A stretch of 64,000 bases of DNA from Pseudothauera nasutitermitis (GTDB lineage: Bacteria; Pseudomonadota; Gammaproteobacteria; Burkholderiales; Rhodocyclaceae), in NCBI RefSeq assembly GCF_004801295.1, contig NZ_SSOC01000001.1:124001-188000 (forward strand). The letters are read 5' to 3'. Each line of letters starts with the position of its first letter. Position 1 is the first letter of the stretch. This document shows, piece after piece, positions 43,180 to 50,508 of the stretch. Below the pieces are notes generated by a model. It did no database searches. It was not told the DNA's origin and was given only the letters and a program-made list of their open reading frames with translations. The position numbers and the translations under genes are program-made.

Positions 43180-43437
43180 ATGACGCCACAGCATCCGCCG
43201 GTCCCCGGGGTTTCCGCACGCCAGGTGTTGGCCCGCAACATCAAGAGGCTACGGGGCGAGAAGGGATGGTCGCAGGAGGCGCTGGCCTTCGAGGCCGGCC
43301 TGCACCGGACCTTCATCGCCCACGTCGAGCGCGCGGGGCGCAACATCTCCATCGACAACATCGAGCGGATTGCCAGGGCGCTCGGCGTGGAGCCCGCGTA
43401 TCTGCTCACCTGTCACGGGGCGAGTGGAGCGACGTGA
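43180..43437 (+). CDS. Small XRE-family helix-turn-helix protein
   Basis: 85 aa. It consists of a single lambda-Cro/XRE HTH: LARNIKRLRGEKGWSQEALAFEAGLHRTFIAHVERAGRNISIDNIERIARALGVEP, here in parts GWSQEALAFEAGLHRTFIA and NISIDNIERIARAL. It probably represses transcription as a dimer. There is no toxin partner or phage gene beside it. The short distance (67 bases) to the downstream sigma-factor start and the shared strand suggest it might be read through, but a Fur-like box lies between. Confidence 0.85.
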   Translation: MTPQHPPVPGVSARQVLARNIKRLRGEKGWSQEALAFEAGLHRTFIAHVERAGRNISIDNIERIARALGVEPAYLLTCHGASGAT

Positions 43438-43448
43438 TCACGTTGTTG

Positions 43449-43467
43449 AGATTGATTATCGATTACA
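43449..43467 (+). promoter_or_regulatory. Fur-like box before the second fecI-type gene
   Basis: GAGATTGATTATCGATTAC in an AT-rich pocket, about 12 of 19 matches to the Fur consensus by eye. It is 37 bases before the GTG start of the sigma gene. Confidence 0.5.
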
Positions 43468-43504
43468 ATGCAGGCCATACTCAATCCACCTGTCTGCCGA
43501 CACC

Positions 43505-44011
43505 GTGACGGACGTCAACCGAAAGCTCGATCTGTACCTGACGCACCGCAGCGCACTGATCGATTACGCCGCTTCGATCGCGGGGGCGCGGGCCACGGCC
43601 GAGGATGTCGTCCAGGAGGCCTGGCTGCGCTTCGAGCATGCGGCGGGGGGAAACTTCCACAACCCGGTGGGCTATCTGTACCGCATCGTGCGCAACCTGG
43701 CACTGGATCTGGCCCGGCGGACGGCCAGCGAGCAGCATGTGCCCGACGGCGACGAGGAACTGGAGGTGCTGCCGGCCAACACGCCCTCGCCGGAAACCCA
43801 GGTCTGCGACAGCAACGCCCTGCGGATCGTCGCCGAGGCGCTGGCCGAACTGCCGGCACGCACCCGCACCGCGTTCGAGATGCACCGCCTGGGCGGCCAC
43901 ACCCTGCAGGAGATTGCCGGACACCTGGGCATATCGGTCGGCCTGGCCCATGGCCTGGTGCGCGATGCCCTGACCCACTGTGCGGAGCGTTTGGGCGATG
44001 ATGACGATTGA
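43505..44011 (+). CDS. FecI-family ECF sigma factor (second system)
   Basis: 168 aa. It has region 2 (ATAEDVVQEAWLRFE, NPVGYLYRIVRNLALDLARR) and region 4 (LPARTRTAFEMHRLGGHTLQEIAGHLGIS). GTG 43505 (VTDVNRKLDLYLTHRSALIDY) gives the standard FecI length and N-terminus. It should transcribe the receptor operon downstream. Coupled to the FecR gene, whose start overlaps its 3' end. Confidence 0.9.
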   Translation: MTDVNRKLDLYLTHRSALIDYAASIAGARATAEDVVQEAWLRFEHAAGGNFHNPVGYLYRIVRNLALDLARRTASEQHVPDGDEELEVLPANTPSPETQVCDSNALRIVAEALAELPARTRTAFEMHRLGGHTLQEIAGHLGISVGLAHGLVRDALTHCAERLGDDDD

Positions 44012-45029
44012 TGCGACACTTGCCGCCCGTTTTGCCGATGAAGCGCTAGCCATGGAAGACAGCAGACCGGACCGTCTGGCGGAAGACCCGAGCTGGCAGG
44101 CCGCGCTGGACTGGCACCTGCGCCTGCAGGCCGCGCCGGAAGACGCCGCGCTGAAGCGGGCCTGCGCAGCCTGGCAGGCGGAGGATGCGCGCCATGCGCG
44201 GGCCTGGCGCAGGCTTCAGCGCGTCTGGCGGCTGACCGGAGAGCTGCCCGCCACGCAGGCCGTGCCGGACCAGCCCGCCGCGCCGGTGCTGCGCTTTCCC
44301 CGCCGCTTCCAGGGGCGCCGTGCGGTCTGGGGCGGCGCGCTGGCCGCCTGTCTGTGCCTGGCCCTGCTGCCTTTGCTGATCGACGGGCCGGGTGGCGATT
44401 TTTCCAGTCCGCCGGGCCAGGTCAGCGAGCTGACCCTGGAGGACGGCAGCCAGGTGACGCTGGACGGCGATAGCGCGCTGGCCAGCCGTTTCGACGACAC
44501 GGGACGCCGCGTGCAACTGCTGCGCGGGCGCGCCTACTTCCAGGTGGTAGCCGACCAGGGCCGGCCCTTCACGGTGGAAGCCGGCAGCAGCCGGGTGGTG
44601 GTGACCGGCACGGCCTTCAATGTGCGCTGGAACAAGCGCCAACTGGAAGTCGCCGTCGAGCACGGCTCCGTCGAGGTCGCGGACCCCGGTCTCGGCCAGC
44701 GCTCCGTGCTGAAGCCGGGCGATCGCCTGCAACTCGACCAGGCGGACGGGAACGCGCGGCGCACCCGCCAGCCGGCCGCGCAGATGGGGGCCTGGCGCAA
44801 GGGGCTGCTGGTCGCCAACGGCACGCCGCTGGCCGAACTGGTCGAAGCGCTGGAAAGCCGCCAGCGTGGCGTGATCCTGCTGGATGACGAGCAACTGGGG
44901 CGCCAGCAGGTGACCGGCGTTTTCGATCTGAACGATCCGCGCCAGGCATTGCAGGCGATGGTGGCCCCGCACGGCGGCCGGATCAAGACCTACGGGCCCT
45001 GGCTGACCCGCATTTCCAGGGAGCCCTGA
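43998..45029 (+). CDS. FecR-type regulator (second system)
   Basis: 343 aa. The N-terminal DUF4880-like domain (DPSWQAALDWHLRLQAAPEDAALKRACAAW) is followed by a membrane helix (about residues 111-128, WGGALAACLCLALLPLLI), then the periplasmic FecR domain (LEDGSQVTLDGDSAL, LLRGRAYFQV, VTGTAFNVRW). It should contact the STN domain of the receptor encoded next. Start ATG 43998 or the adjacent ATG 44001, overlapping the sigma gene by 14 bases. It appears intact, so the regulatory pair survives although the receptor is broken. Confidence 0.88.
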   Translation: MMTIDATLAARFADEALAMEDSRPDRLAEDPSWQAALDWHLRLQAAPEDAALKRACAAWQAEDARHARAWRRLQRVWRLTGELPATQAVPDQPAAPVLRFPRRFQGRRAVWGGALAACLCLALLPLLIDGPGGDFSSPPGQVSELTLEDGSQVTLDGDSALASRFDDTGRRVQLLRGRAYFQVVADQGRPFTVEAGSSRVVVTGTAFNVRWNKRQLEVAVEHGSVEVADPGLGQRSVLKPGDRLQLDQADGNARRTRQPAAQMGAWRKGLLVANGTPLAELVEALESRQRGVILLDDEQLGRQQVTGVFDLNDPRQALQAMVAPHGGRIKTYGPWLTRISREP

Positions 45030-45087: not shown

Positions 45088-45118
45088 GAAAATTTCCGGA
45101 TTCTGCTGAAAATTTCCG
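45088..45118 (+). repeat. Tandem 11-bp direct repeats 20 bases apart
   Basis: GAAAATTTCCG at 45088-45098 and again at 45108-45118, one helical face (two turns) apart, in the 182-base gap between the FecR and receptor genes. This layout is typical of a protein-binding site or a duplicated promoter element. The FecI-dependent receptor promoter is expected in this gap. Confidence 0.6.
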
Positions 45119-45211
45119 CTCTCCCAACGTCTTGTGTCAACGACGCAGTCGCAATTGATAGTCGTTCGCAAAACGTGGCGCATTCGCGCGCCCGCTGGGA
45201 GAGAACAACCG

Positions 45212-46051
45212 ATGAAGTGCAACCCGAACCGGACCGCGGCCTTCGCGCCCCGCCGGCACACCGCCCGATGGCTCGGCACCATGGGCCTGTCCGCATTGCT
45301 GCTGATCCAGCCCGCGCGTGCGCAGGAAGGCAGCGTGGAACAACGTCTGGAACAGCGCCAGTCGTTCGCCGTGGCCGCGCAGCCGCTGGCCGACGCACTG
45401 ACCGAATTCGCCTTGCAGGCCGGCGTGCAGATCGCCGTCGATAGTGCGCTGGTGAAGGGGCTGGACTCCCCCGGCGTGGCCGGCGAATGGTCCGCTCGCC
45501 AGGCCCTGCAGCGCCTGCTCGGCGGCACCCGCCTGCGCTGGCGGCCGAGCGACGGCAACAGCCTGACCCTGGAGCCGGACCCGAGGGCAGCCGACGAAGA
45601 GGCTCCCTTGCTGCTCCCGGACATCGTGGTGCTTTCCAGCGCGGAGCAGAACTACCAGGGCGAGGCGGTGATCGACCGGCGCGCCATCGAGCACTTCCCC
45701 GGCGCCAACGGCGACCTCACCACGCTGCTGAAGATGCACCCCAGCGTGCGCTTCGACACCACCCAGCAGAGTTCCAGCACGCCCGGCGAGATCAGCCCGG
45801 CGGACATCAGCATCAACGGCGCCAAGTTCTACCAGAACAACTTCATGAACAAGGTCGGCCGCGTCGGCGCGGCGCTGACCTGGGACACCCGCATCAAGTT
45901 CGACTTGCCGCTGCGGCGCGGCGAGTCCGCCTATGCGGCCGTGACCATCACCAACCTCACCAATCGCGTCAACGAGATTCTCGGCGACAGCGGCACGCTG
46001 AGCTACGAGGTGGGTCGCCAGTACTGGCTCGAACTCGGCTACCAGTTCTGA
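45212..46051 (+). pseudogene. TonB-dependent receptor with internal in-frame deletion
   Basis: 279 aa where a full YddB/FusA-type receptor would be about 750-900 aa. It retains the signal peptide (to about residue 38), the whole STN signalling domain (about 48-120) and the start of the plug (DIVVLSSAEQNYQGEAVIDR to ADISINGAKFYQNNFM). It then jumps at about residue 212-214 (near base 45847) to sequence typical of the final barrel strands (RVGAALTWDTRIKFDLPLRRG to VGRQYWLELGYQF), including the terminal aromatic needed for outer-membrane insertion. The frame is preserved across the junction. It cannot form a 22-strand barrel or transport. It might be dead, or could survive as a small STN carrier. 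FecI/FecR upstream and protease/transporter downstream look intact. Confidence 0.85.
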
Positions 46052-46060
46052 GGCATCCCG

Positions 46061-48829
46061 ATGATTTCTCGTTTTCTGGCAGGCCTGGCGGCCTGCCTGC
46101 TGCTTTCCGCGTGCGCGTCCACCCCGGCCGCGCTGGAATGGGATGCGCGGGTGATCCGCGGCGAACTGGCCAACGGCCTGCGCTATCAGCTCATTCCCGA
46201 CCATGCCGACGCCGGTCGGCTCGACCTGCGGCTGACCGTGCATGCCGGCTCGGTGGACGAGGACGACGATCAGGTCGGCGTCGCCCACCTGGTCGAACAT
46301 CTGGCCTTCTACAGCCACGGCGGCCATCCCGAGGACGTGCGTGCCCGGCTGCAGGCCGCCGGCTTCCAGCAGGGCAGCCACTACAACGCGGTGACCAACC
46401 ACGAGCGCACCCAGTACCTGCTCAGCCCGCCGGCCGGCGGCAAGCAGGCCGAACTGGCCCTGCAGGCCCTGGCCACGCTGGCGTTCGCCGCCGACTACGA
46501 GGCCGCCGACCTGGAGCGCGAGCGCCCCATCGTCATCGAGGAATGGCGCGGCGGCTTGGGCGTAGCCGAGCGCATGAACGGGCAGCGCATCGCTGCGCAG
46601 CGCGTCGGGTCGCGCTATCCGGCGCACCGCAGCATCGGCAACCGCGAGGCCATCGAAGGCGCTGCGCTGGAACGGCTCAAGGCCTACCAGCAACGCTGGT
46701 ACAAGCCGAACAACATGGTGCTCAGCGTAGTCGGCGACTTCGACCCGCAGATTCTGCGCGCACAGATCGAGCGGGCCTTCGGTGCCGCCGAGGCCGCAGC
46801 GCTGCCGGACCGCGAGCACCTGGAACTGCCGCTGGACGACCACCTGAAGGTGTTCCGCGTGCAGGACAGCCAGAGCGGCAGCAATCAGGTGGTGCTGCTG
46901 TTCCGCTTCCATGACCCCGCCAGCCGCCGGCAGGACGAACTGGGGGTGCGCGAGCGCTTGATCGACCGTCTGACCCTCGCCGCGCTCAAGCGCCAGTTGC
47001 GCCGCCAGGCGCGGCCCGAAGGCGTGACCAGCCTGACCGCGGTGAAGACGCAGATCGGCCGCCGCAGCGAGGTGTTCGGCGTGGCCGCCGGGCTGCGCGG
47101 CGATGCGCATGAGCAGGGGCTGAGCACCCTGCTGCGCGAACTGGAGCGCCTGCGCCGCCACGGCTTGCACCCCGAGGACGTCGAGGCGGCGCGTACCGAG
47201 GTGCGCGAGTTGGCGGAGCGCATGCTGGCCGGCAGCGCCGAAGCGGATTTCGCCGCTTGGGTGCGCAAGCTCAACGACGCCACCATCGCCGAGCGGCCGC
47301 TGCTCCATCCGCATGCCATCGCCCGCCACACCCTGGCCGCGCTGCAGGACATCGACGGCGCCGACCTGCTGGCCCGCCTGCGGCGCTGGAGCGGCAGCCC
47401 CGACCGCGTGCTGCAACTCAGCGCGCCGGGGGAGCGCCCGCTGGTGTTGCCCACGGAAGAAGAAGTGCTGGCGCTGGACCGGCGCATCGCCGCCGAACCA
47501 CTCGAACCGCCCGCCGTGCCGCGTGCGGAAAGCGCCGAAACGCCGGTCGAGCCGCCGCCCGCCGCACAGGCCGGCATCATCCGGGAAGAACGCAGCTTCC
47601 CGGAACAGCGGGTGGAGTACTGGACGCTCGGCAACGGCGACCGCCTGGTCTGGCTGCGCCAGCCGGGGGAGGGCGGGCGCATCCGCTTGCAGGTGGAAAC
47701 GGCGGCCGGTTTCGCCGATGCCGAAGTGCCGGCCTGGCAGGCGCAGTTCGCCAGCCAGCTGGCCGCGCAGGCCCTGCCGCCGTTCTGGAGCGCCGCCCAG
47801 CAGAAAGCCTGGCAGGAGGCCGCCGGCCTGCGCCTGTCGGTCGATCAGCAGGCCCGCCGGCGGGTGCTCGTGGCCAGCGCGCCGCCCGACCGCCTGGGGG
47901 AACTGCTGGCGCTGTACCGCGTACGCCAGACCCTGGTCGAACTCGACCCGGACGGTCTGGACGAGGCGCGGGGCGAGTTCGGCGAAGCCTTGCGCCGGCG
48001 GGTGGACAGCCGGCGTGCCGAGCAGGATCGCGTCTGGCAGCGTTTGAAGACGGGGCGTGCCGAGGATCGCCTGCCCACCGCCGAGGCGCTCGACGCGTTG
48101 ACCGCGGAGCGCGTGCGCGAGCTGTGGCAGCGCCAGCTCGGTGCGCCGGCGACCTACTACCTGATGGCCGACGTGGAGCCCGAGCGCCTGCGCGAACTGG
48201 TACGCCGCGAACTGGCCGGCATCCCGCGCGGGACGGTGCCGCGCATGAAGGCCGACGAGCGTCTGGCCGGCAGGCGCGAGGCCAGCCTGGCCGGCGCCCT
48301 GGAGCCGCGCACCAGCCTGCAGGCGGTGAGCTTCGCCGAACAGCCGTGGACGCCCGAGGACGCCGTGCACGTGGCGATGCTCCGCGAACTGGCGCGCGAG
48401 GCCCTGAAGGCCCGGCTGCGCGGCGAGGCCGCCGGCGTCTATCGGCTGGACTTCGATGCCGAACTGTCGCCCGACGAGCAGCGCATCCTCAGCGAACTGC
48501 GCTTCGTCAGCGCGCCGCAGCGCTTCGAGGAATTGTGGGCGCTGGCACAGGAAACCCTGGCGGAGCTGCCCGCCAGCCTGGACGAAAGCCGCCTCGCGCC
48601 CTTGCGCGAACGCCTGCGCCGGCAGGAAGCCGAGCGTCTGCGCGACCCGGCTACCCAGTTCCACCGGCTGGTGCTCAGCGACCGCGCCTGGGGCGACCCG
48701 CGCTATCTGGCGCGTCAGGCGCACCTGGCCGACGCGCTGCAACTGGCGCCGATGCGGACGCTGGCACAGCGCCTGTTCTCCGCCGACAACCGCGCCGTGC
48801 TCAAGGTGCTGCCACAGGCGGCGCAATGA
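46061..48829 (+). CDS. pqqL: M16 zinc metalloprotease, PqqL/FusC-like
   Basis: 922 aa lipoprotein-type M16 protease. The signal sequence ends in lipobox LLSAC (residues 14-18). The inverted zinc motif HLVEH is at 76-80 with a downstream Glu in VIEEWRGG, about residue 160. The C-terminal half is a second, catalytically inactive M16 module, as in PqqL and FusC, which cleave imported ferredoxin in the periplasm to free its iron. The two halves are joined by a Pro-rich linker (about 485-510). It starts 9 bases after the receptor remnant and overlaps the ABC gene by ATGA. Ferredoxin as substrate is inference from gene order. Confidence 0.85.
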   Translation: MISRFLAGLAACLLLSACASTPAALEWDARVIRGELANGLRYQLIPDHADAGRLDLRLTVHAGSVDEDDDQVGVAHLVEHLAFYSHGGHPEDVRARLQAAGFQQGSHYNAVTNHERTQYLLSPPAGGKQAELALQALATLAFAADYEAADLERERPIVIEEWRGGLGVAERMNGQRIAAQRVGSRYPAHRSIGNREAIEGAALERLKAYQQRWYKPNNMVLSVVGDFDPQILRAQIERAFGAAEAAALPDREHLELPLDDHLKVFRVQDSQSGSNQVVLLFRFHDPASRRQDELGVRERLIDRLTLAALKRQLRRQARPEGVTSLTAVKTQIGRRSEVFGVAAGLRGDAHEQGLSTLLRELERLRRHGLHPEDVEAARTEVRELAERMLAGSAEADFAAWVRKLNDATIAERPLLHPHAIARHTLAALQDIDGADLLARLRRWSGSPDRVLQLSAPGERPLVLPTEEEVLALDRRIAAEPLEPPAVPRAESAETPVEPPPAAQAGIIREERSFPEQRVEYWTLGNGDRLVWLRQPGEGGRIRLQVETAAGFADAEVPAWQAQFASQLAAQALPPFWSAAQQKAWQEAAGLRLSVDQQARRRVLVASAPPDRLGELLALYRVRQTLVELDPDGLDEARGEFGEALRRRVDSRRAEQDRVWQRLKTGRAEDRLPTAEALDALTAERVRELWQRQLGAPATYYLMADVEPERLRELVRRELAGIPRGTVPRMKADERLAGRREASLAGALEPRTSLQAVSFAEQPWTPEDAVHVAMLRELAREALKARLRGEAAGVYRLDFDAELSPDEQRILSELRFVSAPQRFEELWALAQETLAELPASLDESRLAPLRERLRRQEAERLRDPATQFHRLVLSDRAWGDPRYLARQAHLADALQLAPMRTLAQRLFSADNRAVLKVLPQAAQ

Positions 48830-50508
48830 GGCTGCTGCGCGTCTTCCTCGCCCTGGCCCGGCCGTTCTGGTGGAGCCGGGCGGGCTGGCCGGGCTGGCTG
48901 CTGCTGGCCGCGGTGTTCGCCATGGGCATGGGCATCGTCCAGGTCAATGTGCACATCAACGCCTGGAGCAAGACCTTCTACGACACCCTGGCGACCTTCG
49001 ACGGTGCCGCGCTGCTCGACCTGATGGGGGAGTACGCGCTGGCCATCGTGGTGCTGATCCTGGTGGTGGTGTCCAAGGACTGGCTGACCAAGGCGCTGAT
49101 CCTGCGCTGGCGCCAGCACCTCAACGACCACCTGCTCGAAGCCTGGTTCGCCGACCGCAGCTACTACCGCCTGGGGCTGGAAGGGGAGCCGGACCACCCC
49201 GACCAGCGCATCGCCGAGGATGCCCGCCTGCTGGCCGAAAGCAGCGTCGGCCTGCTGGTGTCCTTCTTCATCAACACCTTGCAGATCGGCGCCTTCGTCG
49301 GCGTGCTGTGGGGGCTTTCCGGCACGCAGACCTTCAGCCTCGGCGGCTACAGCCTGACGCTGGACGGCTACCTGGTGTGGGCCGCCGTGCTCTACACTTT
49401 GATCGGGACGCTGCTCACCCACTGGCTGGGGCGTCCGCTGCACGGCCTCAACTACGAGCGCCAGCGCCACGAGGCGGCGTTCCGCGCCGACCTGCTGCGT
49501 AAGCGCGACCACGCCGAACAGATCGCCCTCTACGCCGGTGAAGCCGCCGAGCGGCAGGGCCTCGGCGAACGCTTCGCGGCCATCGCCGGCAACTGGCGGG
49601 CACTGATGCACCGCGAGTTCAATCTGGGCCTGTTCACCGTCGGCTACAGCCGCTTCAGCAACATCGTGCCGGTGTTCGTCGCGCTGCCGGCCTTCCTCGC
49701 CAAGACCATCACCCTGGGCGGGCTGATGCAGATCCGCACCGCCTTCGGCGCGGTGCAGGGCTCGCTGAGCTGGTTCATCTCCGCCTACCGCGAACTGGCG
49801 GCGTGGAGCGCCACGGTGGAGCGTCTCGGGCAGTTCCAGCAGGCGCTGGAGCGCAGCCACCGGACGCGGGTCGAAATACGCCGGGGCGAGATCTTTGCTA
49901 CCTGTGCGCTGGATGTGCTGAAGCCGAGCGGCGAGGTACTGCTGCACCGCCTGAACCTGCACGCGGCACCGGGCGAATGGCTGCTGCTGGCCGGCGCCAG
50001 CGGCCTGGGCAAATCGACCCTGCTGCGCACCCTGGGCGGGCTGTGGCCCTACTACAGTGGAGACTGGCAGCTCCCGGCCGGGCGCTGCCTGCTGCTACCG
50101 CAACGTCCATATCTGGCCGGCGGGCGGCTGGATCGCGTGCTGGCCTATCCGGGGCTCGAAGTGCCGGACGAGGCGACCTTGCGCGTGGCGCTGGCGGTGG
50201 TCGGCCTGGAACGTCTGGGCGATGGGCTGGCGCGCGAGGCGGAATGGTCGCGCGAACTCTCCGGCGGCGAGCAGCAGCGGCTGTCGCTGGCGCGCGCGCT
50301 GCTGTGGCGTCCGGACACGCTGTTTCTCGACGAGGCCACCAACCAGCTGGAAGAGCAGGCCGCGCGCGGTCTGCTGCAGTGCCTGCGCGAATGGCTGCCG
50401 ACCTGTACGGTGATCGCGGTCAGCCACCAGCCGGGCGTGCAGACGCTGTTCGCGCGCCGCGTGGAACTGTCGATGGTCGCCGGAAGACTGGCCGCGGTAC
50501 CGGCCTGA
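48826..50508 (+). CDS. yddA: SbmA/YddA-type ABC transporter with fused ATPase
   Basis: 560 aa. The N-terminal SbmA/BacA-like transmembrane domain has about six helices (VHINAWSKTFYDTLATFDGA, LTKALILRWRQHLNDHLL). The C-terminal ATPase has Walker A GASGLGKSTL, signature LSGGEQQRLSLARAL and Walker B TLFLDEATNQLEEQA. This fused type (YddA in E. coli, FusD in Pectobacterium) lies beside PqqL/FusC and a TonB receptor and is proposed to take peptides or cleaved products across the inner membrane. ATG 48826 overlaps the protease TGA. Confidence 0.87.
   Translation: MRLLRVFLALARPFWWSRAGWPGWLLLAAVFAMGMGIVQVNVHINAWSKTFYDTLATFDGAALLDLMGEYALAIVVLILVVVSKDWLTKALILRWRQHLNDHLLEAWFADRSYYRLGLEGEPDHPDQRIAEDARLLAESSVGLLVSFFINTLQIGAFVGVLWGLSGTQTFSLGGYSLTLDGYLVWAAVLYTLIGTLLTHWLGRPLHGLNYERQRHEAAFRADLLRKRDHAEQIALYAGEAAERQGLGERFAAIAGNWRALMHREFNLGLFTVGYSRFSNIVPVFVALPAFLAKTITLGGLMQIRTAFGAVQGSLSWFISAYRELAAWSATVERLGQFQQALERSHRTRVEIRRGEIFATCALDVLKPSGEVLLHRLNLHAAPGEWLLLAGASGLGKSTLLRTLGGLWPYYSGDWQLPAGRCLLLPQRPYLAGGRLDRVLAYPGLEVPDEATLRVALAVVGLERLGDGLAREAEWSRELSGGEQQRLSLARALLWRPDTLFLDEATNQLEEQAARGLLQCLREWLPTCTVIAVSHQPGVQTLFARRVELSMVAGRLAAVPA

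Follow-up and report, generated by a model that had tools for sequence, protein, structure and literature searches.

The 64,000-nucleotide stretch of the Pseudothauera nasutitermitis genome analysed here (hereafter, the window) carries an operon in which the gene for an STN-bearing, FusA/YddB-type receptor appears to have lost about 690 internal codons through one deletion that kept the reading frame. With a probability that we put at roughly two in three, this is no new device but an ordinary recent loss-of-function deletion in an operon of a known kind. The remaining open reading frame is, judged from the alignments, a remnant of the FusA/YddB family by descent and not a working member of it. 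A recent deletion of this kind would constitute a natural experiment, in which a complete signalling and processing operon has lost the gate alone and a free STN domain is left. The features concerned, all on the forward strand of the window, are as follows.

43370..44011, plus strand: fecI-type ECF sigma factor (Pfam Sigma70_r2 and r4)
43980..45029, plus strand: fecR-type regulator (Pfam FecR and DUF4880)
45107..45131, plus strand: promoter-like motif TGAAAA-N15-CGTC, between fecR and the receptor gene
45212..46051, plus strand: gutted receptor frame, ATG start, 279 residues, with a signal-peptide-like start, STN domain, linker, plug stump and last barrel strands
45425..45577, plus strand: STN domain (Pfam, residues 72–122; confident fold at about 41–120 in the model)
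45845..45850, plus strand: deletion junction, following Met212 (base 45847), to within a few codons
46061..48829, plus strand: M16 protease, FusC/PqqL-like (Pfam Peptidase_M16 and M16_C; 56% identity to the nearest relative, L046)
48826..50508, plus strand: fused ABC transporter, presumably FusD/YddA-like (NCBIfam SbmA-like and ABC matches; 76% identity to L046)

Within the receptor frame, Pfam detects the STN domain only, and the signal peptide and TonB box were assigned by eye. Residues up to 212 correspond to the N-terminal part of full-length receptors, and residues from about 213 to 279 to their last 67 residues. Aligned to the nearest full-length relative fetched, that of Pseudomonas cuatrocienegasensis (locus L046), the two halves use residues 1–194 and 883–949 of 949, with identities of 67% and 59%, respectively, and about 690 residues (about 688 counted against this relative) are missing, comprising most of the plug and the barrel except for about its last three strands. 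The joint after Met212 is clean in an alignment with 15 relatives, for which the DNA was also compared; because the 3′ partner differs among relatives, it is placed only to within a few codons. When the frame was searched against the host genome and 60 relatives, several genomes gave two matches on one long receptor frame, with residues up to about 212 near the frame start, those from about 217 at the frame end, and about 2 kb between them. This two-ended match to full-length receptors confirms the in-frame fusion near base 45847 proposed in the initial annotation, whose figure of 500–600 missing residues falls short of the loss measured against L046. Its account of the retained N-terminal part holds for the signal peptide (by eye) and the STN domain, and what it had taken for the first plug strand is a stump of about 60 plug residues (roughly 151–212).

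The frame thus does not encode the complete plug and barrel of a FusA/YddB-type receptor, and the AlphaFold model of the remnant (mean pLDDT 61.6) contains no barrel; the block means are 86–97 for residues 41–120 (STN) and 33–46 for residues 131–220 (plug stump), and the tail forms three weak strands (48–75). A search for the missing middle across the host assembly returned distant paralogues alone, with 37% and 30% identity as the best matches, which rules out its translocation to another contig.

The genes on either side show no lesions, in agreement with the initial annotation: the FecI, FecR, M16 and ABC frames are open, match Pfam or NCBIfam families, and each align to relatives over most of their length. 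The names FusD and YddA are applied to the ABC gene provisionally, from its position. The true start of fecI is probably nearer 43508 (by eye), relatives aligning from about residue 50, and a small Cro/C1-type HTH gene (43180–43437) lies directly upstream of it. The receptor frame adjoins an M16 protease and a fused ABC transporter, as in a Fus-like protease-associated import operon, and the ECF sigma factor, the FecR regulator and the STN-bearing receptor form a single cluster, as in FecA-type signalling, with the same order in relatives. From its gene content, we regard the fecI–fecR–receptor–M16–ABC operon as a known kind, that of Fus-like protease-associated import.

The relationship to FusA is found across plug and barrel by way of the L046 receptor, which aligns with the two halves of the window frame; this receptor matches FusA (4zgv) with an E-value of 1.9e-97 over residues 120–948 and 6ofr, whose entry reads 'TonB-dependent outer membrane receptor' and which we take to be YddB, with an E-value of 6.5e-73, and its STN region matches the STN structures of FecA and PupB. 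The window has the same kinds of genes together as the Fus system of Pectobacterium (FusA, FusC, FusD) and the YddB-PqqL-YddA system of Escherichia coli, but its operon adds an STN domain and fecI/fecR, and its receptor is without the middle. It shares with FecIRA and PupB-PupR an ECF sigma factor, a FecR-type regulator and an STN-bearing receptor; in contrast to these systems, its receptor lacks a complete plug or barrel, and a ligand-driven signal would not be expected. In the Fus system, the genes for the receptor, M16 protease and ABC transporter are described in PMC5095587 as occurring together. A Pseudomonas cluster of protease-associated import systems is likewise described in PMC6793856, and from genus and gene content, we infer that the relatives with the full gene set belong to this cluster. 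Compared with the cluster as presented there, the window copy is gutted and its host is of another family; furthermore, the terms 'sigma factor' and 'FecR' are absent from the main text of that paper. An open-access literature search for natural barrel-less or deleted receptors, itself of little weight, gave nothing on point.

The distribution of the lesion was examined in 49 related loci, obtained by a scan with one genome per species and mostly named Pseudomonas. All 49 contain long stop-to-stop frames (820–1097 residues), the N-terminal match stops at residue 212 in each, and the C-terminal end was detected in 47 with composition correction off. FecI, FecR, both receptor ends, M16 and ABC are all found in 34 of the 49 loci, in the order of the window; six (L054, L057, L063, L071, L072 and L090) have M16 and ABC with FecI or FecR unmatched in the retrieved stretch, and in the remaining nine, M16 and ABC of this kind are lacking or weakly matched. 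In scans of wider sets, in which at most six candidates were scored per genome under strict E-value limits, 21 of the 395 genomes of the host's family matched at E ≤ 1e-15 (host included), the only short frames being that of the window and a TAA-broken paralogue in the same genome, and 38 of the 398 Pseudomonas genomes matched at E ≤ 1e-35, giving 39 matches with frames of 770–1005 residues and no short form. A widespread short form, which the initial annotation had suggested looking for in other genomes, is accordingly rejected within the 49 relatives and the 395 family and 398 Pseudomonas genomes scanned, and the short form is known from one genome. The lesion is private to one lineage and the gene is intact in the relatives examined, as befits a pseudogene; of the two circumstances that had been coupled beforehand, a junction absent from every relative and frameshifts elsewhere in their genes, the former was found in every relative examined and the latter was not, their genes being open. 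Because M16 matches in the host's five congeneric species reach only 27–32% identity, versus 56% in L046, the operon probably came from, or is held in common with, a Pseudomonas-like lineage, as far as an unrooted tree permits such a reading.

How far the remnant has decayed was assessed at alignment columns at least 90% conserved in 47 relatives. The window carries one change among the 17 such columns of the STN domain, one among the 3 of the linker, none among the 27 of the plug stump and six among the 27 of the C-terminal strands. In the same test, nine relatives gave 0–5 changes of 27 in the C-terminal strands, the window thus being highest, and 0–2 in the STN domain, except for the outlying Azonexus locus L087 (11/19); some tail changes of the window also occur in L066. 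The window branch accounts for 5.2% of gene-tree length in the N part and 9.9% in the C part (62 columns), as compared with 5.5% for FecI, 12.2% for FecR, 7.5% for M16 and 4.4% for ABC, and by this measure the N part of the receptor does not appear accelerated relative to the neighbouring genes. Only these shares are usable, as the window falls between two groups of relatives in the unrooted tree; sister-branch ratios (FecI 0.55, FecR 1.2, N part 1.22, M16 5.45, ABC 4.54) are not readable there, and that of the C part is meaningless, its sister branch being zero. With protein identities of the operon to L046 of 47–76%, synonymous sites would be saturated for a dN/dS comparison.

The initial annotation had offered as its second reading that a 279-residue, barrel-less STN carrier has been kept by selection to fix the state of FecR, thereby shutting or setting the operon. 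This is mechanistically plausible, and a retained protein would also fit the exact frame (1 in 3 by chance) and the intact motif, sigma factor, FecR, M16 and ABC; moreover, the STN domain is well conserved and confidently modelled, and the C-terminal strands show slight drift. A protein kept for its STN domain alone, however, should drift in both stump and tail, and the tail may have drifted slightly, whereas the stump, which would serve no purpose there, keeps all 27 of its conserved positions. The stump being as well kept as the STN domain fits a recent deletion and lends no support to selection on the STN domain alone, and the form occurs in one genome among all those scanned. We therefore hold selective retention to be improbable, without positive support from these comparisons; it is equally doubtful that a natural barrel-less STN receptor, transcribed from the sigma promoter of the operon itself, clamps FecR in a dominant, ligand-blind manner and so provides a ferredoxin-type import operon with a built-in fixed switch. 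Were the remnant under selection, this would represent a new way to fix a cell-surface signalling switch.

Recent loss of the uptake gate, the first reading of the initial annotation, is the best supported, since there is little decay, no relative examined has the junction or any other short form, the motif is kept, and four other receptors of the genome look broken. Either the deletion would be young, or too few changes have accumulated so far to tell; against this reading, the 6 of 27 changes and the 9.9% tree share would fit a tail beginning to drift. With the larger part of the plug and almost the whole barrel absent, uptake would be lost, and import is not expected from the remnant. Its secreted product, if made and stable, would be a soluble periplasmic STN domain that could still dock on FecR yet receive no ligand signal, so that the sigma factor would be uninducible and M16 and ABC would remain at a basal level. 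According to a review (PMC9249621), an excess of STN domain made on its own competitively inhibits the induction of fecA, and the STN domain of PupB stabilizes the periplasmic part of PupR; both observations are also compatible with a retained STN carrier. Because a free STN form reportedly inhibits induction of the FecA type, the likely outcome is an operon that cannot be induced and gives no uptake, and by analogy, the remnant, if made and stable, should hold FecR uninduced.

The window receptor is not the only one that looks broken in the genome, which contains about 40 STN receptors (41 matches, two of which are the ends of one paralogue) and matches the TonB barrel family 60 times. About five of the 40 look broken, with the pairing of STN and barrel made by eye, namely, that of the window and the following four.

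C4 paralogue, 315247-318039 (L009:7245-10061), minus strand in L009: interrupted about 300 codons in by a single in-frame TAA
L107, C1:307260-309470: broken by an in-frame TAA
L108, C9:110643-112867: broken by a frameshift
L109, C2:113775-116133: broken by a frameshift

Of the full-length paralogues in this genome, that on C4 is the nearest; it lies, by eye, 3′ of its own fecI/fecR-like genes and 5′ of a cytochrome-c-peroxidase-like gene. Two FusA-like receptors of one genome are, by their reading frames, disabled through different lesions. The counts suggest that receptors may be decaying in this genome. As a control for assembly quality, RND pumps were examined; all 12 found at full length have open frames, a 13th match being partial, and the difference from the receptors is not significant (p = 0.58, Fisher test, run with 41 receptors where 40 is correct). 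The two frameshifts and two in-frame stops could likewise be errors, and both ends of the window receptor and its neighbours resemble a working gene, as they would if the gene were full length in the organism and its middle had gone missing in the assembly or in a subpopulation of the culture, an artefact of which assembly collapse, the third reading of the initial annotation, is one form. The open pumps speak against such an artefact, as do the quality of the assembly (completeness 100, contamination 0.29, 20 contigs) and the finding that L046, a relative and not the ancestor of the window, has no repeat of at least 12 bases shared by the two breakpoints; we consider it unlikely, though less so than retention by selection.

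The motif between fecR and the receptor gene was sought, with spacings of 14–18, in the 41 relatives having FecR, and it was found upstream of the receptor in 36. None of the five loci without a match (L083–L087) has M16 and ABC of this kind; the motif is present, however, in L055 and L082, where these genes are likewise missing. In mononucleotide shuffles, the motif occurred in 2 of 8200, a control that covers chance only in part, as the form of the motif was adjusted to these very sequences (a wider earlier pattern matched 20 of 41 and the TGAAAA form 36 of 41). The match is the only one on either strand of the window, and a stricter form has a single match in the 4.7-Mb host genome. From its position and conservation, we infer that it may be the FecI-type promoter of the operon; as a candidate signature of this ECF sigma group, it is a small and directly testable result.
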